A stretch of 64,000 nucleotides of DNA, taken from positions 1 through 64,000 of the forward strand of contig SHUT01000003.1 of the NCBI GenBank assembly GCA_009691255.1. Reading direction: 5' to 3'. The notes beneath the pieces were generated by a model that was not told the origin of the DNA, did no database searches, and saw only the letters and a list, made by a program, of their open reading frames with translations. The stretch comes from Ilumatobacteraceae bacterium (lineage in GTDB: Bacteria; Actinomycetota; Acidimicrobiia; Acidimicrobiales; Ilumatobacteraceae). Of this stretch, positions 3,291-28,100 are shown piece after piece. The translations under genes and the position numbers were made by a program. How positions within the stretch are numbered: position 1 is the stretch's first letter; each line of letters starts with the position of its first letter.

Positions 3291-3698
3291 ATGGCAACAA
3301 TATTGGTTCACATTGTTATTCGCGACGGCCATGAGGCCGAGTTTGAAGCAATTGCAAGAGATCTACATCGAGCGAGTCATGCGGGTGAAAAAGGTTTGTT
3401 GCGCTATGAGTACTGGCGAGGGAGCGAACCCCGCTCGTATTACACGCTGTTGTCGTTTGTTGATTTTGCGACGTTTATTGCTCATCAAACAAGCGAGCAT
3501 CATGAAACTGCCTCTCCGCAACTTGGTCCGATGGTGGAGTCTTTGCGCCTGGAATGGGTAGACCCAGTGGATGGGGCATCGGATTTGCCAGCCACGAACG
3601 CCCAAGACTTGTCTGCTGCGTCAGATGAATTGACGCGGGTCTATGCTGGTCGTTTCGCGGCAAGTGTCGCACCGTGGTGGGGGCCACTACGGCACTAA
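3291..3698 (+). CDS. Antibiotic-biosynthesis-monooxygenase (ABM) domain protein
   Basis: About 135 residues beginning MATILVHIVIRDG; the upstream start at 3258 in the track lacks support. The N-terminal half has the ABM/dimeric alpha-beta barrel pattern: first strand ILVHIVI, EAEFEAIARDL helix, then GLLRYEYWRG and YYTLLSFVDFATFIAHQTSEHH. This family includes cofactor-free quinol monooxygenases and haem-degrading enzymes. The C-terminal third (after LEWVDPVDG) is not recognisable. It lies between an SDR and a carotenoid oxygenase, 44 bases after the first and 17 before the second, so it is probably cotranscribed. Function unassigned beyond the fold. Confidence 0.7.
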   Translation: MATILVHIVIRDGHEAEFEAIARDLHRASHAGEKGLLRYEYWRGSEPRSYYTLLSFVDFATFIAHQTSEHHETASPQLGPMVESLRLEWVDPVDGASDLPATNAQDLSAASDELTRVYAGRFAASVAPWWGPLRH

Positions 3699-3715
3699 TA
3701 AATGGGGAGAGCACA

Positions 3716-5077: not shown

Positions 5078-5094
5078 GAGAGCAGGTTGTCGCG

Positions 5095-5544
5095 ATGGCA
5101 TCTGATGCACTGCAATTATTGACTGACCGGACAGAGATTGTTGAGTTGACGGCAATGTATTGCTGGGCTCTTGATACTTGCTCTTATGATGCACTTGACA
5201 ACGTTTTTGTGGCTGATGCCACTGCTGATTTGTTTGAAGATCTCGTCGGAAGAGATGCCATCAAAGCGCGCATTAAACGGGCCCTTGAGCCACTTGACGG
5301 CACTCAACACATGGTTTCTAATCATGTTGTCAGCATTACTGGTGACACTGCGACATGTCGGTGTTATTTGCAGTCGCAGCATATTCGCAAGCAAGACAGC
5401 GGTGGCTCAAACTTCATGGTTGCTGGTCGATACGAAGACACATTAAAACGCACGTCTGATGGCTGGAGAATCACACATCGCGTTCTTACCACTATGTGGA
5501 CAGACGGAAACCCTGCCGTTGCTGGCGGTGGTCCACGTGCGTAA
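5095..5544 (+). CDS. SnoaL-like (NTF2-fold) protein
   Basis: A 149-residue NTF2-superfamily protein. SnoaL_4-type signatures are present: the helix TEIVELTAMYCWALD, the pocket strand GTQHMVSNHVV, and the C-terminal GRYEDTLKRT then GWRITHRVLTTMW. Homologues include polyketide cyclases, ring-hydroxylating dioxygenase small-subunit-like proteins, dehydratases and ketosteroid-isomerase-like enzymes, so the fold alone does not fix a reaction. ATG at 5095 follows the carotenoid oxygenase by 17 bases. It shares its fold with the next gene but little obvious sequence. Confidence 0.8.
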   Translation: MASDALQLLTDRTEIVELTAMYCWALDTCSYDALDNVFVADATADLFEDLVGRDAIKARIKRALEPLDGTQHMVSNHVVSITGDTATCRCYLQSQHIRKQDSGGSNFMVAGRYEDTLKRTSDGWRITHRVLTTMWTDGNPAVAGGGPRA

Positions 5545-5580
5545 TCACAATCATCAATTCAAAACAGCAAGGACACCCTC

Positions 5581-6075
5581 ATGACAAACGAACTTGATCC
5601 GATCAACATCAATGACTACGTATCAATTCAAAGACTCATTAATCGGTACGCAGATGCGGTGATTCATCGCACTGGTTCACAATGGGCAAGTTGCTGGGCT
5701 GACGATGCAGTCTGGGATCTTGGTGGCGGACGCTTAGTTGAGGGCAAAGATGCAATCGTGAAGTTGTGGTATGCCGCAATGGGCGGAATCTCGTCCGTAG
5801 TACAGAATGTGCACAACGGAGAAGTTTGGCAAGTCGCTGATAGTTCAGCAGAGGCCACAGGACGTTGGACAATCAGTGAGCGTTTTAAGCGTGCCGATGG
5901 GGCAACCGGAATCTTGCTGGCACATTATGACGATGCGTACCGCAAGATAAATGGAGAATGGTTGTTCACTCGGCGCTTTTTGCAACCCCACTACCACGGC
6001 CCAGCCGATCTTTCTGGGGAATTTCTCAATAGCAAAGAAATGTTGGCCAAGCGAGGTGTCCCCGCTGATGTCTAA
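5581..6075 (+). CDS. SnoaL-like (NTF2-fold) protein
   Basis: 164 residues; a second NTF2-fold protein in tandem with the one at 5095. Recognisable elements are IQRLINRYADAV, the acidic pocket CWADDAVWDL, the strand VVQNVHNGEVWQV and the C-terminal YRKINGEWLFTRRFLQPHY. The pair may form a heteromer or be an old duplication; both are inference. An AAGGAC ribosome site lies just upstream of ATG 5581. The AMP-ligase follows 28 bases after the stop. Confidence 0.78.
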   Translation: MTNELDPININDYVSIQRLINRYADAVIHRTGSQWASCWADDAVWDLGGGRLVEGKDAIVKLWYAAMGGISSVVQNVHNGEVWQVADSSAEATGRWTISERFKRADGATGILLAHYDDAYRKINGEWLFTRRFLQPHYHGPADLSGEFLNSKEMLAKRGVPADV

Positions 6076-6103
6076 CGGGTATGAAATCTTCTAGCGTTGA
6101 CAC

Positions 6104-7642
6104 ATGCCTTCTTTTGTAACTGAACTTGCGCGAGCACGTCCACAAGAAATTGCTGTTCGCGATTCAGATCACACATTTACATGGCAGCAGGTTGGAGACA
6201 TTCTTAATCGCACTGCCAACAATGTCTTGGCAGTAGATCTAGGGCTCCGTCGTCGCGTTGCAGTTTTTGCAGAGAACGCTGCCGAGACAGCGTTTGCGCA
6301 TCTTGGATGTTTGTTCGGTAGCGCGTCTACGGTGCCAGTTAATTTTCATCTCAACGCCGAGGAGGTCGCCTATATATTGGTCGACTCAGATTCGCGCATA
6401 CTTTTTGTCGGACCAGAAACATTTGAGCGAGGCATCGCCGCTGCAGAGTTGGCTCGTGCGCAAGGAGTACAGCTCAGCGTTGTTGGATGGGGAGTCAGCC
6501 ATGCACAGGTGACTAATTGGGATGACTGGCTGAGTGCTGGTGATGCCACTGATCCGCCCCTTGATGTGCAACCACGCGCCAACCTCTTGTATACGTCTGG
6601 CACAACAGGTCAACCCAAGGGAACCGAATTGCCGCCAACCATGTTTGCTGGCGGTAGCACGATGGCAGAGCACATTGAAGGCATGAAGAAGAATCGCTTT
6701 GCTGACTTTGGAACACATCTCGTGGTTGGTCCGATGTATCACACTGGTCCACTTAACGGAATGCGTTTGTTGGTATGTGGTATTGCGATGGTGATCCTGA
6801 ACAAGTTTGACGCGCAAGGCACTTTAGAAGCAATCGACCTATATAAAACAGAGTCCTCCGTGATGGTTCCGACTCACTTTGTGCGACTGCTGGCATTACC
6901 TGCGGATGTGCGTAACAAATATGATCTGTCGTCTATGAAGTTGGTGGCGCACACTGGCGCAACGTGTCCTGTCGATGTCAAGCGCTCGATGATTGAGTGG
7001 TGGGGTCCTGTGTTTACTGACGCCTATGGTGCAACTGAGGTCGGAACAACATGTTCTATTTCAAGCCAGGAGTGGTTAGAGCATCCTGGTTCGGTTGGGC
7101 GCACGGTTCCGCCGTTCTCGGCACTTGTGTTAGACGACAACGACAACGAGTTGCCTGCCAATACAGAAGGTCGACTGTTTTTTAAAGATGCGACTGGGCG
7201 GGGAGTGATTTATCCTAATGATGCTCAAAAAACAAAAGCGGCAAATATTACCCCTGGTGTATTTACGCTCGGAGAAATTGGCTACATCGATCAAGATGGG
7301 TATGTATTTATTACTGATCGTTTCAGCGACATGGTGGTGTCTGGTGGTGTAAATATTTATCCCGCAGAAGCTGAACAAGTGTTGGTTCAACACCCTGGCA
7401 TTCTTGATGTGGCATGTATCGGAATCCCTTCTGCTGATATGGGTGAAGAACTCAAAGCAATTGTGATTCCCCGCGATGTATCGAACCCACCTGCTGCCAC
7501 AGAAGTATTGGCTTTTTGCCAAGAACGGCTAAGCAAATACAAGTGCCCACGAACAGTTGAGTTCGTTAGTGATTTGGGTCGCAACACGATGGGCAAAATA
7601 AATAAACGAAAATTGCGCGCGCCGTATTGGGAGAAAACCTAA
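6104..7642 (+). CDS. Acyl-CoA synthetase (ANL superfamily), full length
   Basis: A 512-residue acid:CoA ligase. The P-loop LLYTSGTTGQPKG (about residue 165), the A5 motif AYGATEVG, the hinge GEIGYIDQDGYVFITDR, the A8 loop VVSGGVNIYPAEAE and the terminal lysine motif MGKINKRKLRAPYW are all present, so it is intact. Its C-terminal domain closely resembles the truncated ligase at the left edge of the window. It lies just before a crotonase gene, the usual pairing for CoA-dependent catabolism of an aromatic or fatty acid. No membrane segment. Substrate unknown. Confidence 0.93.
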   Translation: MPSFVTELARARPQEIAVRDSDHTFTWQQVGDILNRTANNVLAVDLGLRRRVAVFAENAAETAFAHLGCLFGSASTVPVNFHLNAEEVAYILVDSDSRILFVGPETFERGIAAAELARAQGVQLSVVGWGVSHAQVTNWDDWLSAGDATDPPLDVQPRANLLYTSGTTGQPKGTELPPTMFAGGSTMAEHIEGMKKNRFADFGTHLVVGPMYHTGPLNGMRLLVCGIAMVILNKFDAQGTLEAIDLYKTESSVMVPTHFVRLLALPADVRNKYDLSSMKLVAHTGATCPVDVKRSMIEWWGPVFTDAYGATEVGTTCSISSQEWLEHPGSVGRTVPPFSALVLDDNDNELPANTEGRLFFKDATGRGVIYPNDAQKTKAANITPGVFTLGEIGYIDQDGYVFITDRFSDMVVSGGVNIYPAEAEQVLVQHPGILDVACIGIPSADMGEELKAIVIPRDVSNPPAATEVLAFCQERLSKYKCPRTVEFVSDLGRNTMGKINKRKLRAPYWEKT

Positions 7643-10531: not shown

Positions 10532-12712
10532 TTAAGTAGTGAGTCGTTCAAGAAGTTTGATCGCAACAGGGATGGCACTCTGTACCACCATTCCGGTGAG
10601 CGGGTCAAAACCTTGATCAACAGACACCAACCTGCTCGTTGGCGTTCCGATGTCGCGCACTTTTTCATCCGTAAGTGACGAGCCACCCCATGAGTGCGCC
10701 ATTGAGATAACGCCTGTTCGTACATCTGGTGCTGACTCGACGACGGCGTGTACTGATGCACGGGGTGATGTGATTTGGATTAGGTCACCTTCGGCGATGT
10801 CGTATGCCGCCATATCGGCAGGGTTCATGTATGCAGGATTAGTGCTGCCTTTGGCGGCAAGGACTGAGAGTTCGTTACCAAGTGAGTTCAGTCGATGCTT
10901 GAGTCGACGACTGACAAGCCTAAATGGGAACCGCGTGGAGTCGATTCCGAGTACATCAGCGCCATCAGTTTCGTTGCGCACGACTGCTAATTCTTCGACA
11001 ATGTCATCTGGAGCCATTGTGAATTTGGCAGTGCATGACGGATCGGCCGCAGTGACAACCATTGCTTTTTCAGGATGGATCTTGCGTCGATTGTTTCGGA
11101 CTTCTTCAATTGGCATGCGGGAGTTGGCATACGCCAGTTCAATGATGTCGTGGTCAGTTGGCCGCGTGTCAGTAGGTGCATCGCCGCCAGGGAAAGGCAA
11201 GGTGGAGCCCAACCGTTGTGACAGTTCCCAAAATACTTCCCACTCGTTGAGCACATCTCCGTCGCGTTCGAGAACTGCGTCTGTGTAGTTGGTGTATGGA
11301 GCAGCAAACCATCTGTCCATAAGGTGAGGTACATCAGCGCGCTCAAGTGCAAGCGTTGGAGCGATCACGTAGTCAGCAAACTCAGCAGTAGCCGACATGC
11401 GATGATCGATAACAACGAGTAGTTCGAGGTCTTTCATGGCACGAATAGTGAGTTCTTGGTCTGGCCACGCCACAACGGGGTTTCCGCCACTCACGATGAG
11501 CGCTCTAATGCGACCTTCCCCGGGGGTGATGATTTCTTCTGACAATGTGGCAGTGGGCATTTCGCCGCGGTATCCACGCAAATTGCGGAAACGTGCTGGC
11601 GCACCAGTAACAGCAGAACGTGGAGCAATTACCTGAGCGCGTTTTGGTGTCTCTGGATACAAGAACAAGCCACTTTCCAAAAGATCGCCTTCGCGATTGA
11701 CTCGTCCGCAAATTGTATTGAGCACGATTCCCAGATGTTCTGTGAGGCTTGGGTGCGGAGCCATATTTGGACCAGTGCCCGTGCCGCATGTGCCTTTTGT
11801 GCCCGCCGCAAACATGCGTGCTGCAGCAATGATTTGATCTGCTGGCACGTCGCATCGCTTGGCAACATAGTCAGTCGTAAACATTGCAACGCTTTTGCTG
11901 AGTGCATCAAGATCCGAGATCCACTGATCGCAGAATTCATGGTCAAAGAGGCCTTCATCTAAAATAATATTGATGAGACCTGCCAACAATGTTGGGTCCT
12001 CGCCAGGCTTAACGGCAAGATGAATGTCGGCGCGACTTGCAAGTTCTGTGCGTCGGGGATCGATAACAATGAGTTTCATGCCGCGCGCTTTTGCTTCGCG
12101 CAGTTTGACGAACGGATCGGTTCCTTGTAAACCTCCCACTGGTCCGTAGCTTGAGACCATCGGGTTGTAGCCAACGGCTAGCAACACATCTGCATCACGA
12201 AAGTTGTGATAGCCGGCTTCCCAGATTCCGGTGCGGAAAGGTGCAATGCTTTTTGCTGGTTGATCGATGGTGACGGATGTGTAAAACGATGATGATTTTA
12301 TGCCATCATGAAATGCGTGGGCGGCCGGCACGGCAACACTGTTTTGGTATCCACCTGTGCCTGTATAGCTTGCGACTGCGCGCGGGCCGTAAGTGTCGAT
12401 AATGCGACGAAGCTCTGCAGCAATGCCATCGAGTGCATCAGTGGATGACACTTCTTCAAAAGTTCCATCAGCACGTCGACGCAATGATTGGCGAATGCGT
12501 GCGGGGTGCGACATTTGTTCTGGGATCTGTCGTCCTTTGATGCAGGTGTATCCGGCAAAAAGTGGATCATCGGCAACGCCACGCACTGCTGTGACACGAC
12601 CAAGTGTGACGTCAACTTCCATTGGGCAGCTGGCGTGACACACGCGACAAAACGAGAGATGGGTAGATGTTGTGGAATCTTGTGCTGGTGTCATCGCTTC
12701 ATCTATTGACAT
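10532..12712 (-). CDS. Molybdopterin (bis-MGD) oxidoreductase with 4Fe-4S cluster
   Basis: A 726-residue catalytic subunit of the DMSO-reductase superfamily, formate-dehydrogenase/nitrate-reductase-like. An N-terminal CxxCxxxC with a distal Cys (CRVCHASC, then YTCIKGRQ) binds a 4Fe-4S cluster. MGD-binding elements DVLLAVGYNP and MKLIVIDPRRTE follow, and the C-terminal MopB domain includes FPFRLVSRR and MAHSWGG. At the loop where formate dehydrogenases carry Sec or Cys (ARVUHGP), this protein reads SVTIDQPAK, so neither a Cys nor a Sec ligand is evident. No TAT signal is seen, so it is probably cytoplasmic. AAGGGGGC precedes ATG 12712. Substrate unknown. Confidence 0.9.
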   Translation of the reverse strand: MSIDEAMTPAQDSTTSTHLSFCRVCHASCPMEVDVTLGRVTAVRGVADDPLFAGYTCIKGRQIPEQMSHPARIRQSLRRRADGTFEEVSSTDALDGIAAELRRIIDTYGPRAVASYTGTGGYQNSVAVPAAHAFHDGIKSSSFYTSVTIDQPAKSIAPFRTGIWEAGYHNFRDADVLLAVGYNPMVSSYGPVGGLQGTDPFVKLREAKARGMKLIVIDPRRTELASRADIHLAVKPGEDPTLLAGLINIILDEGLFDHEFCDQWISDLDALSKSVAMFTTDYVAKRCDVPADQIIAAARMFAAGTKGTCGTGTGPNMAPHPSLTEHLGIVLNTICGRVNREGDLLESGLFLYPETPKRAQVIAPRSAVTGAPARFRNLRGYRGEMPTATLSEEIITPGEGRIRALIVSGGNPVVAWPDQELTIRAMKDLELLVVIDHRMSATAEFADYVIAPTLALERADVPHLMDRWFAAPYTNYTDAVLERDGDVLNEWEVFWELSQRLGSTLPFPGGDAPTDTRPTDHDIIELAYANSRMPIEEVRNNRRKIHPEKAMVVTAADPSCTAKFTMAPDDIVEELAVVRNETDGADVLGIDSTRFPFRLVSRRLKHRLNSLGNELSVLAAKGSTNPAYMNPADMAAYDIAEGDLIQITSPRASVHAVVESAPDVRTGVISMAHSWGGSSLTDEKVRDIGTPTSRLVSVDQGFDPLTGMVVQSAIPVAIKLLERLTT

Positions 12713-12734
12713 AGAGCCCCCTTGCGTTGTGGGA

Positions 12735-12750
12735 GTTCGGGTGGGCGAAC
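12735..12750. promoter_or_regulatory. Short inverted repeat in the Mo-enzyme/P450 divergent promoter
   Basis: GTTCG and CGAAC are separated by six bases within the 81-base gap between the divergent molybdopterin oxidoreductase and P450 genes. It could be an operator for either direction. Five-base arms are weak evidence and no second copy was noticed. Confidence 0.25.
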
Positions 12751-12793
12751 ATATGGGATAGTTTATGTCAAGTCCAGCAGTGAAGGAGTATGG

Positions 12794-14098
12794 GTGGCTA
12801 CCAATACAGCGTCTTCTCGGGTCGATGACCTAATTAATCGGGAGCAATCGGCGATTGCCTGCCCGTATCCGATCTTTGCCGAACTCCGTGAGCATGACGG
12901 CCCAACCTTTCATGAGCATCTCGGAGCTTGGCTGGTAACTAAATATGACGATGTGCGGATGATTTTGCGCGATACCGAGAGATTCTCGAGTCGCAGCCCG
13001 ACAGGTCCGCAGGCGGCCGGAACCGTGTTGATGGAGCGGTTCATGGAGTTATCGCAAGATCCGACGATGGCGCCGTATTTGACATCAATCACCGCTGGAC
13101 GCGGGCAGGCAGCCGTGTTGCTTAACGCTGATCCGCCAGATCACCGACGTCAACGAAAACTTGTCAATCCCGCGTTTCGTCCCGATCGATTGCGCAGTAT
13201 GGAACCTGCAATCACCCAGACGGCGAGTCGCTTGCTCGATGATGTAGCCGCCCAGATTAAAGCATCTGGTCAAGTAGACATTGTGACGCAGTTTGCGGTG
13301 GGTCTGCCAATGACAATTATTGCACTGGCGCTAGGCGTGTTGGGTGATGATTTAGCAACGTTTAAGCGATGGTCAGATGACATCGTGATGCCTGTTGGAA
13401 ATCATTCGCCGTCGCTTGACCAAGTGCGCGGTTTCATTATTTCTTCTAACGAGTTCAAGGAGTATTTCTTGGCGCGTATTGCCTTAAGCAAGATAGAGCC
13501 GGCAGAAAATATTTTGTCAGACATTGCTAACGCTGTGATTGACGGTGAAGAACTTACTGACGATGAGCAGTTAGGGATGTTGCAGCAGTTCTTGGTTGCT
13601 GGCAACGAGACAACAACCAAGCTAATCACCAACATTATTCATGCGCTCGCTGCAGACAGTGCTCTACAGATGCGCGTGCGGGCAGACCGCACGTTGATTG
13701 AGCCGTTGGTTGAAGAAATATTGCGCATTGAAGCGCCAGTGGGAGGCCTGTTTCGCCAAGCCAAGGTGGATGTGCAAATCGGGGCAACGACTGTGCCTGC
13801 CGGGGACCACCTCTGGTTGTTATTTGCTGCCGCCAATCGAGACGAGTGCAAATTTGCCAAGCCAGATGCCGTTGACATTGACAGGACAAATGCCAAAGAC
13901 CATTTGGCCTTTGGCAACGGAGAACATTTTTGTCCTGGCGCTGGCTTGGCCAGACTAGAAGCCTGTATTGCCACTGGCTTGCTGCTGGACCGTCTTGACA
14001 ACATCAGTGTGGCCCCCGACAATGACTTTGTCTACGAGGATTCCTTCGTCTTGCGAGGACTCAAGCACCTCAACATCATTGCCACCCCGTTTTCCTGA
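12794..14098 (+). CDS. Cytochrome P450 (soluble bacterial class)
   Basis: About 434 residues. I-helix VAGNETTTKL (near 270), EEILRIEAP carrying the ExxR, and haem loop AFGNGEHFCPGAG (Cys near 380). The track starts at 12722; GTG 12794 is preferred because GAAGGAG lies five bases before it, whereas the upstream ATG has no such site and would extend the protein by 24 unusual residues. It is divergent from the molybdopterin enzyme. The haem-loop region resembles those of the P450s at 974 and 16964. Together with the following genes it forms a P450-rich plus-strand run. Confidence 0.93.
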   Translation: MATNTASSRVDDLINREQSAIACPYPIFAELREHDGPTFHEHLGAWLVTKYDDVRMILRDTERFSSRSPTGPQAAGTVLMERFMELSQDPTMAPYLTSITAGRGQAAVLLNADPPDHRRQRKLVNPAFRPDRLRSMEPAITQTASRLLDDVAAQIKASGQVDIVTQFAVGLPMTIIALALGVLGDDLATFKRWSDDIVMPVGNHSPSLDQVRGFIISSNEFKEYFLARIALSKIEPAENILSDIANAVIDGEELTDDEQLGMLQQFLVAGNETTTKLITNIIHALAADSALQMRVRADRTLIEPLVEEILRIEAPVGGLFRQAKVDVQIGATTVPAGDHLWLLFAAANRDECKFAKPDAVDIDRTNAKDHLAFGNGEHFCPGAGLARLEACIATGLLLDRLDNISVAPDNDFVYEDSFVLRGLKHLNIIATPFS

Positions 14099-14222: not shown

Positions 14223-15965
14223 ATGTCAGAGCGCTGGATAACAGACAGGGATCCAAGTGTTAGGTGGCCCCACTACACACGTGCAAATGCTGGCGAAGTA
14301 TTACCGACTGCTGCGAGTCCACTTGGGCAGCAGTTCAGTTGGGAAAAAGGAATTCTTCTGGGATGGCGTGATGGATACGTGCGAAGTGGAAACTATTCAC
14401 TCGATGAGTTCACGGAGAGCCCACCCGCAGTGGCCGGATTCTTTGCCGGATATTTTTATATCAACTTGGCAAATGTCCGCATGCAGGGAGTGCGTAGTCC
14501 TGCTGTCACCGTTGAGCAACTTGACTTAGCATTTTTTGGAAATCATCCCGAGGTTCCGCCATATGTTGCCCATCCACTCGATGAGCGACCCGACTTGCTG
14601 GAGTTGATCGGTGCCCACTTGGGTTGGCTCATGACAGCCACGACGTGGCCAGAGATTAATGAAGAAAAAGTGCAGACGATTGCATTTCGCGCGTCTCGAC
14701 CTGACTTGACAAAACTGACGGATTCGGCACTTCTTGAACGCGCTCGTTCTACACAACCAATGTTGCAAAAACTTTTTGAGAGTCATACTTTGCCTTCATC
14801 TGGCTCTGGAGTCGCTCCCGGAATTTTGTTTGCTGTTGGTGAGGCGATTGGTGATCCAACAATCCCGATGAAGATTGTGGCCGGAATCGGCGAAGTTGAT
14901 TCAGCAGAACCAAGTTATGAAATGTGGAAGATCTCGCGTGTGATCCGAAGTTCTCAAGAATTGACGGCTGCTTTTAATGCAGGCGTGACCGGACTGCTCG
15001 ATCGCTTGCGCAACTCAGGCTCTGCGGACGCCAAGAGATTCTTGGCACAGTTCAGTCAGTTCATCGCAGACTTTGGATCTCGTGGTCCAAATGAGTGGGA
15101 GATGAGTGCAGAAGTTTGGGAGACAAAACCAGAAATAGTTTTGGCAGCATTCGATCGTGTTCGCTTTCAGAATGATGATGAGTCTCCCGAGATTCGCAAC
15201 AAGCGTCAGGCCAAAGAGCGTGAGCAAGCAATTATTGAAGTTCGTGCCAAGGTGCAAGTTTTGGGAGAAGAACTTGCTGGAATGTTTGAGTCAGCGATTG
15301 TTGCATCTGCACAATTGATGTTTAGAGAGCGCACAAAGACGAACATCATTCGAGTTGTACACGAGGGCCGTATGGTGTTTCGCGAACTCGGTCGGCGTCA
15401 CGCTGCAACAGGAGCGATTCAACAAGCTGGTCATATTTTTATGTTGCTTGACGACGAAGTTGAAGCATTTATTGCTGATCCAGGTTCGATGGGGGCCACT
15501 CTGGCAACTCGGTACGGACAATGGCTGAATCTGCAAACGCTCGAGCCACCATTTTTTATAAAAAACGGAATCGTGCCGCCACTAAGTCAGTATCCTCCCA
15601 AAGGCAGTTCATCGGCCGTAAAAGGAAAGCCGGGAGAATCGATTCAGGGTGTCGCTGGTTGCCCTGGTCACTACATCGGACGTGCCCGCGTGATTCTGGA
15701 CGCAGCCGAGCCCGGAGATCTGCAGCCAGGAGACGTCATGATTGCCCCGAACACCGACCCAGCATGGACTCCACTGTTTATGTCTTGCGGTGCAGTGGTT
15801 GTCAATGTCGGTGGACAAATCAGTCATGCAATTATCGTTAGCCGTGAACTTGGCTTGCCGTGCGTGGTGTCAGCGACAGATGCAACTGTGCGTATTCCAG
15901 ATGGTGCCTTGGTAGAAGTAAACGGAGACAACGGAATCGTCACAATATTGGAGATGCCAGCATGA
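14223..15965 (+). CDS. PEP-utilising/swivelling phosphohistidine-domain protein lacking ATP-grasp
   Basis: 580 residues. The C-terminal ~80 residues form a swivelling domain with the phospho-acceptor His in NVGGQISHAIIVSRELGLP. The middle contains FGSRGPNEWEMS and MLLDDEVEAF, which resemble the substrate-binding region of rifampicin phosphotransferase and PEP-synthase-like proteins. The N-terminal ATP-grasp (nucleotide-binding) domain of those enzymes is absent; the first ~200 residues are unrecognised. If active, it would need a separate ATP-binding partner, as in phenylphosphate synthase. GGGGGC lies upstream of ATG 14223, and the stop overlaps the next start (ATGA). Its place between P450 and F420-type enzymes suggests phosphorylation of a catabolic intermediate, which is inference. 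Confidence 0.8.
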   Translation: MSERWITDRDPSVRWPHYTRANAGEVLPTAASPLGQQFSWEKGILLGWRDGYVRSGNYSLDEFTESPPAVAGFFAGYFYINLANVRMQGVRSPAVTVEQLDLAFFGNHPEVPPYVAHPLDERPDLLELIGAHLGWLMTATTWPEINEEKVQTIAFRASRPDLTKLTDSALLERARSTQPMLQKLFESHTLPSSGSGVAPGILFAVGEAIGDPTIPMKIVAGIGEVDSAEPSYEMWKISRVIRSSQELTAAFNAGVTGLLDRLRNSGSADAKRFLAQFSQFIADFGSRGPNEWEMSAEVWETKPEIVLAAFDRVRFQNDDESPEIRNKRQAKEREQAIIEVRAKVQVLGEELAGMFESAIVASAQLMFRERTKTNIIRVVHEGRMVFRELGRRHAATGAIQQAGHIFMLLDDEVEAFIADPGSMGATLATRYGQWLNLQTLEPPFFIKNGIVPPLSQYPPKGSSSAVKGKPGESIQGVAGCPGHYIGRARVILDAAEPGDLQPGDVMIAPNTDPAWTPLFMSCGAVVVNVGGQISHAIIVSRELGLPCVVSATDATVRIPDGALVEVNGDNGIVTILEMPA

Positions 15966-16933
15966 AAAAACCATTTCGTTTTGGAGTACAAGGGTATGCG
16001 CCTGCGTCTGCAGGAGAGTGGCGCATGCTTGTTCGTACCGCTGAGTCTCTAGGATTTTCTTCTTTTCATTTGGCAGACCATGTAATCGGACCAGGGCCTG
16101 CGCTTGCAGCGACGGGTCACCCTGTGCAAACAGTTGCAGCAATTCCGGCAATGGCAGTTGCTGCAGAAGCGACAAGCACAATCAAGATCGGCTGTCGCGT
16201 ATTGTGCGTGGATTATCGCAATCCGGTCATGCTGGCCAAAGAACTCGCTACGCTCGATTTTTTTTCTGAGGGTCGCCTCGAGATCGGATTAGGTGCAGGC
16301 TGGTTGCAAAACGAGTACGACGCAATGGGGATTACTTTTGATCGTGCCGGAGTTCGATTAGATCGACTCGAAGAAGTTATTGCGTTGATTCGCGCTTCAA
16401 GTGCGGACGGAGAACTCAATATCGCAGGCAAACATGTTCATGCCGTTGGATTTGACGCTGTTCCAAAACCAGTGCAGCGACCATTGCCTCCAATCATGAT
16501 CGGCGGAGGAGCACAACGCATCTTGGGAATTGCCGGACGAGAAGCCGACATTGTGAGTCTGAACTTCAACAACTCATCTGGCAAGCTTGGCCCGGAAGGC
16601 ATTGGCTCTTCCACGGCTGAACTAACGGATCAAAAGATTCAATGGATCAAAGATGGTGCTGGTAAGCGTTTTGATGACATTGAGATCGAAATCGCTGCGT
16701 ACTTTACGGTTGTCACGCCAGATGGCGCAGCAACTCGGGCCAAAATGGCGCCAATGTTTGGTTTAACACCAGAAGTTTTTGCTGAACACCCCAATGCGCT
16801 TATCGGCTCGGTCGACGAAATATGTGACCGCATTGTTGAGCGACGTGAGCGTTACGGAATCAGCTATATCACATTTGGATCGTCGGTTATGCAAGCTGCC
16901 GCTCCAATTGTTGAACGACTCTCAGGAAAATAA
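15962..16933 (+). CDS. LLM-class (probably F420-dependent) oxidoreductase
   Basis: A 323-residue TIM-barrel luciferase-like protein. It starts FRFGVQGYAPASAGEW and includes FSSFHLADHV, the GLGAGWLQNEYDAMG loop, RPLPPIMIGGGAQRILGIAGREAD and the C-terminal GSVDEICDRI. These fit the actinobacterial F420-binding family with FRFGVQ starts. ATG 15962 overlaps the previous stop by four bases (ATGA), so the track start at 15860 is rejected. It would transfer hydride between F420 and a substrate; that substrate is unknown. A P450 gene follows 30 bases later. Confidence 0.9.
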   Translation: MKKPFRFGVQGYAPASAGEWRMLVRTAESLGFSSFHLADHVIGPGPALAATGHPVQTVAAIPAMAVAAEATSTIKIGCRVLCVDYRNPVMLAKELATLDFFSEGRLEIGLGAGWLQNEYDAMGITFDRAGVRLDRLEEVIALIRASSADGELNIAGKHVHAVGFDAVPKPVQRPLPPIMIGGGAQRILGIAGREADIVSLNFNNSSGKLGPEGIGSSTAELTDQKIQWIKDGAGKRFDDIEIEIAAYFTVVTPDGAATRAKMAPMFGLTPEVFAEHPNALIGSVDEICDRIVERRERYGISYITFGSSVMQAAAPIVERLSGK

Positions 16934-16963: not shown

Positions 16964-18229
16964 ATGAAAACTGACCTTGCAACATTTAACCCTTTTGATG
17001 CTGAGACATTGCAGTGCCCATTTCCGCACTATGCCCAGATGCGTGAAGAAGCTCCCGTCTTGTTAGTCGAAGGCATTGGCGTACATCTTGTGACGCGGCA
17101 CGATTTAGTGATGGAAGTTTTGCGTGACCCGCAGACGTATTCTTCGATGTTTGGTGGTGCCGGAATGCCACTCAGTGCAGAAGCACGCGAACGCTTGAGT
17201 GCCGTTGTCAAAGAAGGGTACCCACGCGTACCCACCATGTTGACTGCTGATCAGCCAGACCACACGCGCTATCGCCGACTGGTCTCGAAGGCGTTTCACC
17301 CCAAGGTCATTGCTGAACTTGAGCCATTCGTCCGTCAATTGACTGTGCGCTTGATTGATTCTTGGATTGCCAATGGACACATTGAATTCGTTAAGGAGTT
17401 CGGCGTGCCGTTGCCGGTAGAAGTGATTGCTCATGCTCTCAATGTTCCGCAAAGTCGCTTGGCAGATTTCAAGCGTTGGTCTGACGACTCAATCGCCGGA
17501 ATCGGGACAAACATTTCTCTTGATGAGCGAGTGCGTGCAGAAGGCGGAGTCAATGAGTTTCAGCACTACTTTGCTGAGCAGATCGAGCTTCGTCGTACTG
17601 ATCCGCGTGACGACATCTTGACGAACTTACTGAATGCCAGCATTGAAGACGACGACCCAGAAGTCACTGATAGGCGACCACTTGATATGCCCGAGATGCT
17701 CAGCATCGTGGCGCAGTTGCTTGTGGCGGGCAACGAAACAACGACCAAGATGTTGACCGAAATGATGCGTTTGCTAGCAGAAAATCCAGAGCAGTGGCAA
17801 ATGATCAGAGACGATCCATCGCGAATCGATCGCGTTGTTGATGAGACACTCCGTTTGTCGACACCAACTCAGGGAATGTGGCGCATTGTCACCAAAGATA
17901 CAGAACTTGGTGGTACCCAGTTAACAAAGGGGTCGCGTATTGTGATCGTGTTCTCGTCTGCTAATCGTGACGAGCGCTTGTTTGACGAGCCAGATGCGTT
18001 TGATCCTGACAGAGAAAACCTTCGCGAGAACTTGGCGTTCGGAAAAGGAATCCACTTCTGCCTAGGTGCAAACTTGTCGCGCCTTGAGGGAAGAGTGGCA
18101 TTAGAAGAATTATCCAAGCGGATTGAAAGTTTTAGCTTGTCACCAACAAACAAATATGAGTATTTCCCTAGCTTCATGTTGCGTGGGCTCATCAGCCTTG
18201 ACGTTGACTTTGTAGCGGTGCCTAAATAA
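16964..18229 (+). CDS. Cytochrome P450 (soluble bacterial class)
   Basis: 421 residues. I-helix VAGNETTTKM (near 256), ExxR in DETLRLSTP, haem loop AFGKGIHFCLGANLSRLE with Cys near 366. A GATGGAG ribosome site lies close to ATG 16964. It is the third P450 of region A and shares with the others the PDHTRYRRLVSKAF helix-C region typical of actinobacterial terpenoid/steroid P450s. The SDR gene starts 3 bases after its stop, so hydroxylation followed by alcohol oxidation is a plausible two-step module. Confidence 0.93.
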   Translation: MKTDLATFNPFDAETLQCPFPHYAQMREEAPVLLVEGIGVHLVTRHDLVMEVLRDPQTYSSMFGGAGMPLSAEARERLSAVVKEGYPRVPTMLTADQPDHTRYRRLVSKAFHPKVIAELEPFVRQLTVRLIDSWIANGHIEFVKEFGVPLPVEVIAHALNVPQSRLADFKRWSDDSIAGIGTNISLDERVRAEGGVNEFQHYFAEQIELRRTDPRDDILTNLLNASIEDDDPEVTDRRPLDMPEMLSIVAQLLVAGNETTTKMLTEMMRLLAENPEQWQMIRDDPSRIDRVVDETLRLSTPTQGMWRIVTKDTELGGTQLTKGSRIVIVFSSANRDERLFDEPDAFDPDRENLRENLAFGKGIHFCLGANLSRLEGRVALEELSKRIESFSLSPTNKYEYFPSFMLRGLISLDVDFVAVPK

Positions 18230-18231
18230 CG

Positions 18232-19041
18232 ATGGGCTCTCAACTCGCGGGCAAGATTGCTGTAGTTACAGGATCAAGTCGCGGAATTGGACGCGGCACA
18301 GCAATCGCACTCGCAGAAATGGGCGCAACTGTTTATATCACTGGTCGCACAACAGGCAGTGATCCGCTTTCAATCGACACAACTGCGTCAATGGTCAACG
18401 ATGCTGGTGGACGTGGAATCGCAGTTCAGGTTGATCATGGCAATGACAATGAAATTGCAGCATTGTTTGCCCGAATACAAGCAGAGTCGGGCAAACTAAA
18501 TATTCTCATCAACAATGTTTACAAAATTCCAGATCCACCTGCATGGGGTGGTGGATTCTGGGATCACCCCGTGAGTATTTGGGATGACCAAGTTGGAATC
18601 GGATTGCGCGCACATTATGTGGCGTCATGGCATGCAGCACCATTGCTATTTGCTGCAGGCATAGGCGGGTCAATTATCAATGTGTCGTCGCCTGGGGGCA
18701 CCTCGTATCACTTCAGTTCGTCGTACGGTGCTGGCAAGGCTGGACTAAATCGATTGAGTGCCGACATGGCGATCGAACTAGAACCCAAAGGCATTGCCTG
18801 TTGTTCGGTGTATCCAGGATCGGTTGCCACAGAGTTCATTCAGAAATGGGCTGGCGAACGCGGAATAGATCTATCAACATCTCAAACAACTCTTGGTGTG
18901 GGGCGTGCGATTGCCGCACTGGTGATCGCACCGGATTTGATGCAACGCTCGGGTTCGATTCAGTGGGTTGAAGACATCTCGGAAGAGTTTGATGTGCGCG
19001 ACGAAAACGGAAATCGGGCAGTCAAATACGCTGGCCGCTAA
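18232..19041 (+). CDS. Short-chain dehydrogenase/reductase (DHRS1-like)
   Basis: 269 residues. Cofactor motif VTGSSRGIGRG; TGRTT after the second strand suggests NADPH; active-site Ser in NVSSPGG and catalytic YGAGK. The segment NNVYKIPDPPAWGGGFWDHP replaces the usual NNAG and resembles DHRS1-type SDRs. It begins 3 bases after the P450 stop without its own clear ribosome site, so translation is probably coupled. It ends the plus-strand operon that starts at 14223 and converges on the PhyH pair. Confidence 0.9.
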   Translation: MGSQLAGKIAVVTGSSRGIGRGTAIALAEMGATVYITGRTTGSDPLSIDTTASMVNDAGGRGIAVQVDHGNDNEIAALFARIQAESGKLNILINNVYKIPDPPAWGGGFWDHPVSIWDDQVGIGLRAHYVASWHAAPLLFAAGIGGSIINVSSPGGTSYHFSSSYGAGKAGLNRLSADMAIELEPKGIACCSVYPGSVATEFIQKWAGERGIDLSTSQTTLGVGRAIAALVIAPDLMQRSGSIQWVEDISEEFDVRDENGNRAVKYAGR

Positions 19042-19059: not shown

Positions 19060-19896
19060 TTATTCGTCCCATGAGCGATGCCACAGCAGTGGATTGCTCG
19101 AGGATGTTGCCGGAGTTCCGATTTGGGCGCCACCAAGCCACAGTGCGAGGTCGAGTTCACGCGCGGGGTGGTCTGTGACCCCGATGTTGGTGCCGTCTGC
19201 AAAATAAATAATTGTCATGACCCCGCGCATGATGTCCGTGCTGTTGGCTGGGGCCGAATGCAATGTCCACCCCCGATGAAACGTGGCATCTCCTGGAGAG
19301 AATGGTCCGTGAGTAGACAATGAGAACCCGCGTTCTTGAACGACTGTTTCAAAATGAGCCTGGGATTCGTCACCAATGACTTGTTCTCCAAGATTGCCGT
19401 GTCGCCAACTCTGGTCGGCAAATATCATTCCACCAATATTGCTCGGCACATCAACAAGAGGCATCCACATTGTGATTGTTTTGTTGGTGTCTAGTGGCCA
19501 ATACACCTGATCTTGATGCCACGGCGTGAATCCGCCGCCAGGTTCTTTGTAGAGGGCTTGATCGTGATACAGCCGCACGCCGTCGCACTGCAATAGTTCG
19601 GCCGCAACGCGAGCGAATCGTCGGGCGTACACGAACGCGGCAACTATGGGATCGTGTTGACAAATATTGGCAGATTGAATGAATGCTTTTCCGTATGTAT
19701 CGCGTTGCTCAAGCGGACGATTGTCCCATCGACATGCCATCGTGGCTTCATCGATATTGTCTTTATAGGCAGCTATCTCTTGGCGAGAAGCCAATCCACG
19801 CACGACTGTGTGGCCATCTCGCTCAAAGTCGTCAATTGTTGATCGTGAAAGTGAAAAGTATTCAGTTAGCGGACGGGCATCAGATGCTGCGGTCAT
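19060..19896 (-). CDS. Phytanoyl-CoA dioxygenase (PhyH) family protein, copy 1
   Basis: About 278 residues; Fe(II)/2-oxoglutarate-dependent hydroxylase fold. The HxD metal motif is WHQDQVYW, and the distal His is in GWTLHSAPAN, followed by an Arg (DIMRGVM) that could bind 2-oxoglutarate. The track start is 19923, but ATG 19896 forms an exact ATGA overlap with the stop of the upstream PhyH gene and is preferred. It is paralogous to that neighbour, since both contain LYHDQA-YK and WHQD. Family members hydroxylate acyl-CoAs, ectoine precursors, halogenated compounds and terpenoids, so the substrate is open. Confidence 0.88.
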   Translation of the reverse strand: MTAASDARPLTEYFSLSRSTIDDFERDGHTVVRGLASRQEIAAYKDNIDEATMACRWDNRPLEQRDTYGKAFIQSANICQHDPIVAAFVYARRFARVAAELLQCDGVRLYHDQALYKEPGGGFTPWHQDQVYWPLDTNKTITMWMPLVDVPSNIGGMIFADQSWRHGNLGEQVIGDESQAHFETVVQERGFSLSTHGPFSPGDATFHRGWTLHSAPANSTDIMRGVMTIIYFADGTNIGVTDHPARELDLALWLGGAQIGTPATSSSNPLLWHRSWDE

Positions 19897-20714
19897 ACGG
19901 GAGAGCCGTTGCGCAATACCCATGGGAATCGTGCATCATCAGTGAGTGAAGTACCTGTGGCATCCGTAGGTCCATCAAACCTTCTGGCACTTGGTCCGAC
20001 ATATTGCAAAATGTACGCCTTGCGCATGTGGTCTGACACGTTTGGCCCAGTGAGGTGTGGCGTGAGGCTAGAAAAAATAACTGCACCACCAGCCTTGATG
20101 GGTGCAGCAACGGGAGTCACGGGTGGTTTTTCAAATATCTCCCAACCCAATGGTTCGACGTATGTGTGCAGAAGTGTTCCGCGTCGATGTAGTCCAGGCG
20201 CTGCCCACACGCAACCAGCCTCAATGGGCACGTCGTTTAGCGCAATCCAAACAGTGAGATAGTGCTCTGGCATGACGAAGGTGTAGCCGTTGTCTTGATG
20301 CCACGGAAACCTACGGGGCTTTTCGTTCGCTTTGTATACCGCTTGATCGTGATACAGACGAGCATCAGGTCCGATGAGATCATGCACGAGTCTGGTGATT
20401 GGCAAAGACGAGACAAACTTCAGTAGTACATCTGATTTGAGAGCGATATTTGGAGCAAACGTAATCGCACCTTTTTCAGCGATAAACATTCTGCTGTCCG
20501 GTAATTTTTCAAGAAATTCATCAACTTGTTCACAAAATGCATCAGTCTCAGTGCAGACTTCAGCGAGAGTCTGCTCATCGATGAGATTTTCGATGACAAA
20601 ATATCCGTCCGTGTTGAATTGGTTCCACTGCTCATCTGTGAGCGTTGTTCGCCCGTGCGAGGGGATCACAGTGTCCCAGTCAAAGCCAGACGACATGGGA
20701 TGAGAAGCGACCAT
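19893..20714 (-). CDS. Phytanoyl-CoA dioxygenase (PhyH) family protein, copy 2
   Basis: 273 residues; intact Fe(II)/2OG core with HxD in FPWHQDNGY, the second His in LTPHLTGPN and an Arg in MRKAYI. The helix EQWNQFNTDGYFVIENL is the standard PhyH N-terminus. ATG 20714 or the internal ATG 20696 could be the start. It is translationally coupled to the PhyH copy downstream. The carotenoid oxygenase gene upstream (ending 20767) is on the same strand 52 bases away, so the three may form one operon. Confidence 0.88.
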   Translation of the reverse strand: MVASHPMSSGFDWDTVIPSHGRTTLTDEQWNQFNTDGYFVIENLIDEQTLAEVCTETDAFCEQVDEFLEKLPDSRMFIAEKGAITFAPNIALKSDVLLKFVSSLPITRLVHDLIGPDARLYHDQAVYKANEKPRRFPWHQDNGYTFVMPEHYLTVWIALNDVPIEAGCVWAAPGLHRRGTLLHTYVEPLGWEIFEKPPVTPVAAPIKAGGAVIFSSLTPHLTGPNVSDHMRKAYILQYVGPSARRFDGPTDATGTSLTDDARFPWVLRNGSPV

Positions 20715-20766: not shown

Positions 20767-22230
20767 TTACGGGGTTTGGTTGCTCCAGTATGAATGAGTT
20801 CCGCTACAGATTTTTTCGGGCAGTCGTATCTTGGCGATGGGACCATCGCTGACGCGTTGTGCGTCAAAGACAACGCAATCACTCGCATCGGCCACGGTAT
20901 CTGTGGTGAAAGAGACAAGGTAGCCATCGTCTTCTGACCGAGAGTTAGTGCGTGGTGCAAATACAGTTTCGCTGCAGTAGACACCATCATCAAAGCGAAA
21001 TGACTCTTCGGTTTCGGTTTGAACAGAGTGCTTAATGATGCCCTCGAAGAGGAACCATCCATTTACTGGTATCGCACTATATGTGTAGTCGTATTTGCGA
21101 CCGGCATATGCATTGTTAATCATGCCGAATTCAGTGATGGTGTCTGAGATAGGGCCTTCTTTCACCAATCCGGTTCGACGATTGAGGCGCCAGCGGTATG
21201 GACGCGATTGCAGCGCATACAGATCAAGAAAACGGAACAGCCGCGTGTTGAGATCGGCGTCTGGGGGCATCGTGGGGGAAGGATCAAACTCAAAATAGCC
21301 ATCCAGAATAATCTCATCGCCTTCTTCGTAGGCGTTGATCCAGTGCAATACATATGTTGCCTCACACTCAAACCACTGGACGTCGCTACTTGAGCCATGA
21401 CGCGGAATAACAGCAATACGCGTGGGCATCTCTTTATGGAATTGAGTGGCGTATACGTCACGCTTGAGCAGTTCTTCGTCCCAAAATAGTGGACAGTCAT
21501 TAAGAATCGAAAAGTTTGTCGTGTAGGCCATGTCGTGGGGCAAGCGTGGACCAGGCAGTGGGATGTCGGTGTATGTCACTAGGTCTCCGGTGGCAGAAAC
21601 AACTCCGTAATGCAGGTATGGATATGTCGTTGAGTAATTAAAAAATAGCAACTCGCCAGTGTTCTCATCGACCTTGGTATGCGCAGAGACACCTTCTTGC
21701 GGAAAAGCACCGTTCCATGATGTGGTGCCGAGATTGTCGAGTGTATGAGGGTCTAATTGATACAGGTCTCCGCATTGGTAAAAACTTGTGAGGGCGATTC
21801 CATTATGAACAACGACGTCTGTACTTGACGCATCTTTCATTCGTGTTCGTGCACCCCATCCATCTTGGCGTATAGATTTTTTTGGTGATTCAGCAAGACC
21901 AGACCACAACGGACCTCCGTGTTTGAGTTCTGCGGCGAGTCCTTGGGTCTGAATCATTCTGTTGCGATACGAAGCAGATCCGCCATTAAAGGACATTGAG
22001 TGCAACATGCCGTCACCATCAAAAGGGTGATAGCGATCTAGTGCGGGCACTAACGGATTTTCGGTATTACGCAGGTACACCCCATTGAGGTCGCTAGGTA
22101 TTTCTCCTTGCACCTGCATCTCGGTGGCGTTCCATTCGCGAGTCTGGGGTGCCCATGCCCCAATGCGGTATGGGTGGTCATCATCTAATGGCAACAGTGA
22201 TGGCCATGTGTTGATCAAAATGTTCGTCAT
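20767..22230 (-). CDS. Carotenoid oxygenase family protein, second copy
   Basis: 487 residues. The family hallmarks LNGVYLRNTENP and YHPFDGDGMLHSM are present, and Fe-ligand His contexts are seen at VSAHTKVDE, RLPHDMAYT, VLHWINAYE and, near the C-terminus, GTHSYW. The overall sequence is clearly different from the copy at 3716, so this is not a recent duplicate. AAGGAG lies 6 bases before ATG 22230. It is divergent from the cupin gene. Expected activity is oxidative cleavage of a polyene or stilbene double bond. Confidence 0.9.
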   Translation of the reverse strand: MTNILINTWPSLLPLDDDHPYRIGAWAPQTREWNATEMQVQGEIPSDLNGVYLRNTENPLVPALDRYHPFDGDGMLHSMSFNGGSASYRNRMIQTQGLAAELKHGGPLWSGLAESPKKSIRQDGWGARTRMKDASSTDVVVHNGIALTSFYQCGDLYQLDPHTLDNLGTTSWNGAFPQEGVSAHTKVDENTGELLFFNYSTTYPYLHYGVVSATGDLVTYTDIPLPGPRLPHDMAYTTNFSILNDCPLFWDEELLKRDVYATQFHKEMPTRIAVIPRHGSSSDVQWFECEATYVLHWINAYEEGDEIILDGYFEFDPSPTMPPDADLNTRLFRFLDLYALQSRPYRWRLNRRTGLVKEGPISDTITEFGMINNAYAGRKYDYTYSAIPVNGWFLFEGIIKHSVQTETEESFRFDDGVYCSETVFAPRTNSRSEDDGYLVSFTTDTVADASDCVVFDAQRVSDGPIAKIRLPEKICSGTHSYWSNQTP

Positions 22231-25107: not shown

Positions 25108-28100
25108 ATGCGTGGTCCAATAGAATCTTTCAAGACAGAACGGAGCAGGGTATTGCGCTGGGTTGTAGTAGGTGCCACTATCGCAAGTGTTGGCGTGGTC
25201 TTTTTGCCCAGGGCTGCTCAGGCGGTAGCCACTTCCTCTGACTACATAGTGGTGTTGCGCGATGGCGTAAATCTGTCAAAAAAAGTCGCTTCTGAAGAAA
25301 AACGTGGCAACGACGTAGGCGATACATTCTCGGCTGGTTCTGATGGTTTTGTTGCGTCACTTGATAGTTCTGATGTCGCGCGATTACGCAAAGACCATGA
25401 TGTGCGAATCATCGAACGTGATGCCCCTGTGTCGCTTGTTGCTGACAACGAAACCGACACAATCAGTTCGCTATCCACCCCAACTGGTGCGGTTGGCGAG
25501 GTCATTCCTGGCCGCTATATCGTGCGATACAAGTCCAACGATGCGTTGCTTGCTTCGGTAAATTCTTTAGAAATCTCGGTATTAGCTAACTACACCAATG
25601 TGTTTCCTGGATACGTCGCCAATCTTAGTGATGCGACAGCCAATCAGTTGCGCACAACGCAAGGCGTTGTGCTGGTCGAACAAGACAAAGTGGTTTCAAT
25701 TAATACAGATCAACCGATCGGGGTGGGCGACTCATGGGGTCTTGACAGAGTCGATCAGCGGTTGCTTCCGATGAACATGATGTATTCGTATTCTACAAAC
25801 GGTACGGGTGTCTCGGCGTATATCATCGACACTGGTATTCGTGCCACGCACGTGGAGCTCGCAGGCAGAGTGGGGAGTGGTTTCACGGCGGTGAACGACG
25901 GAAATGGTTCCTCTGATTGTCATGGTCACGGAACCCATGTCTCTGGAACTGTTGGCGGCACAAGATATGGTATTGCAAAAAATGTCAATTTCTTCCCAGT
26001 GCGCGTATTAGATTGCAACGGCTCTGGAAGTCTCTCCGGTGTTATTGCCGGAATTGATTGGGTGATTGCGAATCACGCCGCTGGCGTGCCAGCAGTCGCC
26101 AATATGAGTCTTGGTGGTGGCTACAGCTCAAGCCTCAATGCTGCTGTGGCACGTGGCGTCGCAGATGGAGTGGTGTTTGCGGTTGCCGCCGGCAATGAGT
26201 CATCACTTGCATGCAACGTGTCTCCTGCATCGGAGCCGACAGCCATCACTGTCGGAGCAACCGATACCAGTGATGCGCGTGCGTATTTCTCGAACTACGG
26301 AGCATGTGTCGACATCTTTGCTCCTGGGGTTGGCATAAAGTCGTCAACTGCGTCGAGCGATACATCTACTGCGTCATGGTCAGGCACCTCAATGGCCACA
26401 CCACATGTCGCAGGTGTTGCTGCGCAGTATTTACAGTCTCACCCCACTGATACGCCAGCTCAAGTGGCTCGGGCATTAGATGCCGCCACTACTTCAAATG
26501 TAATAGTCAACCCCGGTACGGGTTCGCCAAACAAGTTGTTGTACAACGTTTCGTTTTATCCAGCTCCGATAACCGTGCCAAGTGCTCCAAACTCACTTAC
26601 GTCAGTTGCTGGATCCTCGCTAGTCACTCTGAGTTGGGGAGCGCCTTTAACTGACGGAGGAGTCGCTATTTCTAACTATGTAGTGGAGTATTCATCTGCA
26701 TCAGGCTCGTGGACTACTTTTGCTCACCCTGCGTCAACGGCATTGTCGATTATTGTTACTGGTCTCACAAACGCAACGGCGTACTCATTTCGAGTATCAG
26801 CAACTAACAGCGTCGGCACCAGTGTTTCTTCGGCGACAACAACCGTTACCCCCCGTGATCCAACTCTTCCGTCTGCACCAACTGCAGTATCAGCTATTGC
26901 GGGAAACGCCTCTGCTGTCGTGCGTTGGACAGCCCCGAGCAGTGCAACTATTTCTTCGATCACCATTAACTCCACTACTCCTTATGTAGATATTCCTTTG
27001 ACTGCCGGAGCACTTGATGTCATTGGTCATTCTGACCACTCATGTTCTGCTCATGTTGCGAGCGCAATTGATCCGTGGCTCGACGTCATTCAAGTGTCAA
27101 CTGGTCGAATTATTTTCTCTAATGACGATGGTGCTCACAACTATTCAACAGATTGCTATGCATCTCGCATCACCACCACTATCTCTGGATCAGGGTATGT
27201 CTTGAGAGTCAGGGGCTGCTGTGGTCATCCTTATGGAGTCGTGCGACTCGAACAACGCTCTACGGTTGTAGATGTCACTGGCTACACGGTCAAATCGTCT
27301 CCTGCTGGCCTGACATGCACCACTGCAACTTTGTCTTGCACAGTTGCTGGTCTGACAAATGGCACGCCATATACATTCACAGTCATTGCCACTAATGCAG
27401 TAGGCAACAGTGTTTCATCGTCACCGTCTGGTGCAGTCACTCCAACTAATCCAGCTCTGCCGTCTGCGCCAACTGCAGTATCAGCTACTGCCGGAAACGC
27501 ATCTGCTGTCGTGCGTTGGACTGCACCAGTGATCTCGTCTCCGCGTTGGCAACGAGAAGCTGGCTCCATCCAAGCCACGGAAGTTGATCTAGATGCTCCG
27601 TACGACTCTGGCTATTCAATCCGCCAATGGGCTGACTGTGCATGCGCTCGATTTAGATGGGTGAGCCTAACGCGTATTTCTGATGTCTATGACACGGATA
27701 TTGTGCTGGTCGATGCAAAGTGGCCCGTCACTGGCTACACGGTCAAATCGTCTCCTGCTGGCCTGACATGCACCACTGCAACTTTGTCTTGCACAGTTGC
27801 TGGTCTGACAAACGGCACGCCATATACATTCACAGTCATTGCCACTAATGCAGTAGGCAACAGTGTTTCATCGTCACCGTCTGGTGCAGTCACTCCAACA
27901 GAACCAGTACCGTCTGCACCAACTGCAGTATCAGCTACTGCCGGAAACGCATCTGCTGTCGTGCGTTGGACAGCCCCAGTAAGCTCGTTTGTCACTGGCT
28001 ACACGGTCAAATCGTCTCCTGCTGGCCTGACATGCACCACTGCAATTTTGTCTTGCACAGTTGCTGGTCTGACAAACGGCACGTCGTATACATTCACAGT

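Follow-up and report, generated by a model that had tools for sequence, protein, structure and literature searches.

A Rifampicin-Phosphotransferase-Like Protein without an ATP-Grasp Domain in a Conserved P450 Operon of an Ilumatobacteraceae Bacterium

Organization of the Locus

The DNA analyzed here, referred to as the window, comprises the first 64,000 nucleotides of contig SHUT01000003.1 (assembly GCA_009691255.1, forward strand) from an Ilumatobacteraceae bacterium. We focused on an open reading frame encoding a protein of 580 amino acids related to rifampicin phosphotransferase (RPH), and on the genes around it. The protein and its relatives that stand without an ATP-grasp partner are called here the lone family. 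The features were assigned as follows:

10532..12712 (-), molybdopterin oxidoreductase, divergent neighbor (PF00384, 2.7e-26)
12722..14098 (+), upstream cytochrome P450 (start at 12794 in codon-based gene calls; PF00067, 1.2e-31)
14223..15965 (+), lone protein of 580 aa with an RPH-type substrate-binding domain and a His swivel, no ATP-grasp (Pfam, NCBIfam, model and tree)
14223..15632 (+), substrate-binding (RIF-BD-like) domain, residues ~1-470 (alignment, column comparison and model)
15723..15935 (+), PEP-utilizers swivel domain, residues 501-571 (PF00391, 4e-20; H535 invariant)
15962..16933 (+), F420-dependent LLM oxidoreductase, 323 aa (TIGR03621, 281.9 bits against a cut-off of 213.15)
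16964..18229 (+), cytochrome P450, 421 aa (PF00067, 4e-29)
18232..19041 (+), SDR oxidoreductase (PF00106, 1.8e-33)

The stop codon of the 580-aa gene and the start codon of the LLM gene share the ATGA at 15962-15965, and the P450 and SDR genes follow downstream, as had been read in the original prediction. The conserved gene order is a divergent molybdopterin oxidoreductase, followed by P450, the 580-aa gene, LLM, P450, and SDR. This operon was wholly or largely kept in seven other loci (L061-L063, L081, L082, L084, and L086) and partly in four more (L065, L083, L087, and L088), and in other genera it was still conserved where the 580-aa protein had as little as about 58% identity. Because orthologues from both congeners and other genera keep the operon in whole or in part, the association is far beyond chance. 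When the genes were taken one by one, the overlap with the LLM gene recurred in L081, L082, L084, L091, and L092; the downstream P450 was beside the gene also in L061-L063, L065, L081, L082, L084, and L086-L088; the SDR was kept in L061-L063, L081, L082, L084, and L086, and the upstream P450 in L061-L063, L081, and L086. The molybdopterin oxidoreductase was conserved at 58-96% in 11 loci (L061-L063, L065, L081-L083, and L086-L089).

The neighborhood was then counted within four genes of 110 non-redundant lone-family members. The co-occurrence with P450 and LLM genes that had been proposed as a check was observed, with a P450 near 21 members and an LLM near 18; 17 of these LLM genes were on the same strand, and 14 were adjacent within 150 bp. 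SDR genes were found near 40 members, Rieske oxygenases near 13, and molybdopterin oxidoreductases near 10. A literature search on the lone family with P450, F420, or LLM enzymes found nothing specific.

The window is a catabolic island with P450s, LLMs, SDRs, and carotenoid-oxygenase-type and PhyH-type genes. Two RPE65-type carotenoid oxygenase genes lie at 3674-5077 (+) and 20767-22230 (-), and two overlapping genes occupy 19060-20714 (-), of which 19060-19923 encodes a PhyH-type dioxygenase according to Pfam. A subtilase of 1430 aa with four fibronectin III repeats is encoded at 25153-29445 (+). The neighboring inositol monophosphatase and NucS genes were rejected as pathway evidence, since they are on the opposite strand and in shared synteny blocks. 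Long open reading frames around some homologues, considered as possible fusions, were judged with codon-based gene calls to be frame artefacts of GC-rich DNA.

Domain Content and Structure Model

The open frame around the gene has 584 codons in all, which leaves no room for an overlooked domain in frame upstream. The PEP-utilizers domain was the sole Pfam domain of the protein, and neither PPDK_N nor the PEP-binding barrel PF02896 was found in this search. From residue ~213 to its end, the protein aligned with the C-terminal part of the NCBIfam models for RPH, RedH, PigC, and PEP-synthase-like proteins, and all these partial matches were far under the model cut-offs; with the RPH model NF041857, it scored 119 of 999 bits and did not reach the cut-off. 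The likeness to the prodigiosin and undecylprodigiosin ligases PigC and RedH lies in this C-terminal region, whereas their models span about 880 aa, with cut-offs that the 580-aa protein is far from reaching. Against the PDB, the top phmmer match was RPH-Lm of Listeria (5fbs, 7.9e-25).

An AlphaFold2 model built on an alignment of 53 sequences had a mean pLDDT of 93.2 and a pTM of 0.91, with a mostly helical N-terminal part and the swivel at the C-terminus. When this model was compared with the PDB by Foldseek, six RPH-Lm entries ranked first, the best being 5fbt (E 6e-21, 611 columns, TMq 0.68); the lower-ranking matches, i.e., PPDK, enzyme I (EI), and pyruvate kinase, covered the model only partially. 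A cryptic ATP-grasp was looked for in the full-length model, and none was seen. The 580-aa protein is an RPH minus its ATP-grasp, with the whole RIF-binding-like domain and the C-terminal His swivel carrying H535. This agrees with the domain content of the original prediction, in which the swivelling His domain and the middle region were kept and the nucleotide-binding domain was missing.

The protein resembles RPH (RPH-Lm, PDB 5fbt/5hv1) over its full length in structure, in the RIF-binding-type domain, in the C-terminal His swivel, and in the R-E-x-x-K phosphate site, but it has about 18% identity to it, lacks the N-terminal ATP-grasp (PPDK_N) of the RPH chain, and has V where RPH has T at position -8 of the swivel loop. 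With PPDK and PTS enzyme I it shares the His swivel domain, but neither a PEP-binding barrel (PF02896) nor an ATP-grasp is present.

Conserved Residues and a Separate Clade

Relatives of the protein were found at 91-94% identity in three congeners, at 66-70% in other genera, and at 66-67% in other families of the order, and the contig scan gave at least 591. Among the matches listed, most were from Acidimicrobiia, and others came from Nocardiaceae (Rhodococcus, Gordonia, and Williamsia), Saccharopolyspora, Chloroflexota, and Tepidiforma. Many genomes carry several members each, and where annotation exists, they are named just 'PEP-utilizing enzyme'. A profile search of 150 genomes of the order detected the lone family at E<=1e-80 in 33 of them, the source genome counted, with 1-5 matches each; the genomes surveyed were mostly MAGs.

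Across 53 homologues, the acceptor histidine H535 was invariant, as the earlier proposal required, and so were E369 and K372, while R368 was kept in at least 90%. In the alignment with RPH-Lm, R368, E369, K372, and H535 correspond to R666, E667, K670, and H825, and the substitutions R666A and E667A abolished rifampin inactivation by that enzyme (PMC4844700). The homologue alignment showed that N22, R239, R287, and E291 of the substrate-binding domain were also invariant; together with E381, they make up an invariant set peculiar to the lone family. A column comparison showed that R239, R287, E291, and E381 are not common, as a set, to the ATP-fed relatives.

The closest comparison in domain content is with the two-component phenol dikinases HpeHI, CreHI, and PpsAB, whose HpeH, CreH, and PpsA subunits are also stand-alone substrate and swivel proteins of about 580-610 aa encoded in catabolic operons, some with P450. 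However, in a tree of 48 rows built with a quick method, the 37 lone proteins and the seven paired, two-component-type proteins formed separate groups (SH-aLRT 99 each). The residues R368 and K372 of the lone family are not shared by the two-component proteins, nor are N22, R239, R287, E291, and E381 as a set.

The swivel loop differed too. The two-component systems have the loop T/S-x-x-G-G-x-x-x-H, whereas that of the window protein is V527-N-V-G530-G531-Q-I-S534-H535, with V527 at the T/S position, yet with both glycines intact. At position -8 from the histidine, V was found in 35 of the 37 lone proteins versus T/S in the ATP-fed relatives: the paired proteins had T/S in six of seven and C in one, and of the fused, ATP-grasp-bearing proteins, L169 had T and L168 had L. 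The second Gly was replaced by A or S in 28 of the 37 lone proteins, and only nine kept GG. To judge from these alignments, the lone clade keeps the phosphotransfer residues of RPH (R368, E369, K372, and H535), and the T/S of the swivel loop and often its second Gly have been lost.

These differences could also mean that the RPH fold has been re-used for a non-phosphoryl role, for example in binding or in a lyase- or isomerase-type enzyme with H535 as acid/base. Such a role would fit the four invariant residues that are not common as a set to the ATP-fed relatives, the lost T/S..GG signature, and the fact that no donor was found, but it does not require the retained H535 and R-E-x-x-K phosphate site, and we regard it as quite improbable.

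Search for an ATP-Grasp Partner

HpeH, which provides the substrate and swivel domains, needs the ATP-grasp protein HpeI, and HpeH H581Q is inactive (PMC12167813). The original prediction offered two mechanisms: phosphorylation of an intermediate with a separate ATP-grasp subunit, as in phenylphosphate synthase, or use of phosphohistidine in another way. The first was not supported by the searches described here, and the second is what remains.

A two-component-type pair is present in the order at L164 (genome G052), and it was used to collect six annotated control loci, among them one of Azoarcus beside phenylphosphate carboxylase and two P450 operons of Rhodococcus (R. oxybenzonivorans and R. 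ruber, both with the order P450, ATP-grasp, PEP-utilizing protein, SDR). The ATP-grasp gene was adjacent in 6/6. In the 150 genomes of the order, a profile of the two-component clade gave seven strong matches, G191 having weak ones only, and by coordinates each of the seven had a stand-alone PPDK_N at a distance of about 0.1-1.2 kb. The pair of G052 is one of these seven, so the distinct controls amount to 13 loci, and in 13/13 the ATP-grasp gene was adjacent or within about 1.2 kb. Profiles of both ATP-grasp types were run over 123 lone-family loci (about 2.0 Mb, with L164 set aside), and a stand-alone ATP-grasp was found in 0/123, versus 7/7 control loci.

The search was extended to whole genomes. 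In the source genome, which is 84.6% complete, PPDK_N was present solely inside a full-length PPDK; the lone PPDK_N partner looked for as a check on the original prediction was not found. No PPDK_N was detected at E<=1 in 12 gene-bearing genomes that are 94-98% complete, a search that a highly diverged, non-PPDK_N ATP-grasp could escape, and PPDK_N was likewise not found in three Nocardiaceae genomes with the gene. The gene-bearing G022, G031, and G190 had PPDK_N in PPDK only, and the closed genome G124, also with the gene, had a PPDK plus one weak PPDK_N match in an 889-aa frame. Among 149 genomes, PPDK_N was present in 21/32 with the gene and 85/117 without it, i.e., there was no association (p=0.51, computed with 86/118 before the recount to 85/117). 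Since PPDK_N-less genomes carry the gene and the two are not associated, the system does not, as a rule, include a dedicated ATP-grasp subunit.

Five truncated PPDK were found among the 123 lone-family loci. In three, a form with ATP-grasp and swivel and no PEP barrel adjoins the lone-family member (L111, 5721-7901; L121, 7463-9670; L147, 11536-13716), and similar ones lie farther away in L137 and L161. The three adjoining genes suggest that some of the lone family may receive phosphate from ATP in trans.

A classical two-component dikinase, in which H535 is charged by an undetected or shared ATP-grasp such as the N-terminal domain of the resident PPDK, is in our judgment unlikely. The domain content equals that of HpeH and PpsA, the operons of R. 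oxybenzonivorans and R. ruber are precedents for P450 and kinase together, and CreHI starts 4-cresol catabolism, as cited in PMC12167813; the full PPDK of the source genome and the ATP-grasp and swivel proteins beside three members would also suit it. Nevertheless, it has to be set against the absence of a stand-alone ATP-grasp near the 123 loci, the 12 near-complete genomes without any PPDK_N, the separation of the lone and paired clades, and the diverged swivel loop.

Proposed Mechanism

Tentatively, and ahead of the other readings, we favor the view that the 580-aa protein is the acceptor, or substrate-side, half of a dikinase of the RPH type and operates with no ATP-grasp component dedicated to it. 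Since genomes with the gene can be without any recognisable ATP-grasp of this type, the donor that charges H535 is most likely not ATP, and the protein would most likely transfer phosphate through its phosphohistidine, independently of ATP, to a hydroxylated intermediate of catabolism. In this mechanism, H535 on the swivel would carry the phosphoryl group and exchange it with a hydroxyl of the intermediate held in the RIF-binding-like site (R368, E369, and K372), and the P450, F420-LLM, and SDR of the operon would act on, or release, the phosphorylated intermediate. The preferred donor would be a small phosphorylated molecule that binds at this site too, giving a ping-pong transphosphorylation as for HpeH alone, which transfers phosphate from 4-phosphoacetophenone to acetovanillone (PMC12167813).

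If these relatives do phosphorylate substrates without an ATP-binding partner, a novel route by which catabolism makes or transfers phosphate esters lies behind the common annotation. The analysis yields a sequence signature and gene pairs that can be used for testing the donor.

PPDK-Type Proteins as Possible Donors

The alternative to a small molecule is a PPDK-type protein. In seven loci of PPDK_N-less genomes with the gene, the alignment of PPDK to that of the source genome began only at position ~340-400 of 893, and a residue-by-residue alignment of three of them showed intact swivel and PEP-site motifs. The N-terminal part of PPDK was searched in 16 PPDK_N-less genomes with the gene, and no match was found; the PF02896 proteins fetched from PPDK_N-less genomes were truncated PPDK. 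Of 43 PPDK_N-less genomes, 11/11 with the gene had a PF02896 protein, versus 6/32 without the gene that had a non-EI one (p=2e-6, ignoring descent); the EI filter was used only on the gene-negative side, and the gene-positive G109 has EI too.

These data bear on a relay in trans, in which the swivel His of a PPDK-type protein would hand its phosphate to H535 for onward transfer to the substrate. The PPDK would be the full-length form in the source genome, an ATP-grasp-less, PEP-fed form in other families, and the ATP-grasp and swivel form in Chloroflexota. The association with PF02896, the intact motifs, and the truncated PPDK adjoining members in L111, L121, and L147 are consistent with it. 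On the other side, the tree would allow the truncated PPDK to have arisen just once, only some four family-level lineages underlie the association, PF02896 proteins of similar size occur without the gene in family f34 and G047, and the gene is present in Nocardiaceae genomes in which PPDK_N is missing altogether. We consider the relay improbable. Its PEP-driven version, a split system in which the ATP-grasp-less PPDK takes the phosphate of PEP and passes it swivel-to-swivel to acceptors like the 580-aa protein, is very doubtful; if true, halves of PPDK and RPH would together form an ATP-free system that phosphorylates catabolic intermediates.

Two further donors were rejected. PTS enzyme I was discarded because PF05524 is absent from the PPDK_N-less genomes of the 150-genome sample except G109, and APH/EcKL kinases were discarded as a general donor because they occur near some members only. 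APH- or ecdysteroid-kinase-like genes were seen in L161 (14621-15706), L162 (10469-11494), L163 (1898-3001), and the cluster-17 loci.

The ATP-grasp-less PPDK are encoded at 4095-5669 (+) of L201, 5008-6594 (-) of L206, and about 5757-7493 (-) of L204; two have 524-528 aa, and the third lies in a longer frame. The PPDK of L202, L203, L205, and L207 align in the same way as these three. The glyS gene is beside the ATP-grasp-less PPDK in L201, L204, and L206, with dnaG there too in L204 and a dnaG-like gene one gene farther in L206.
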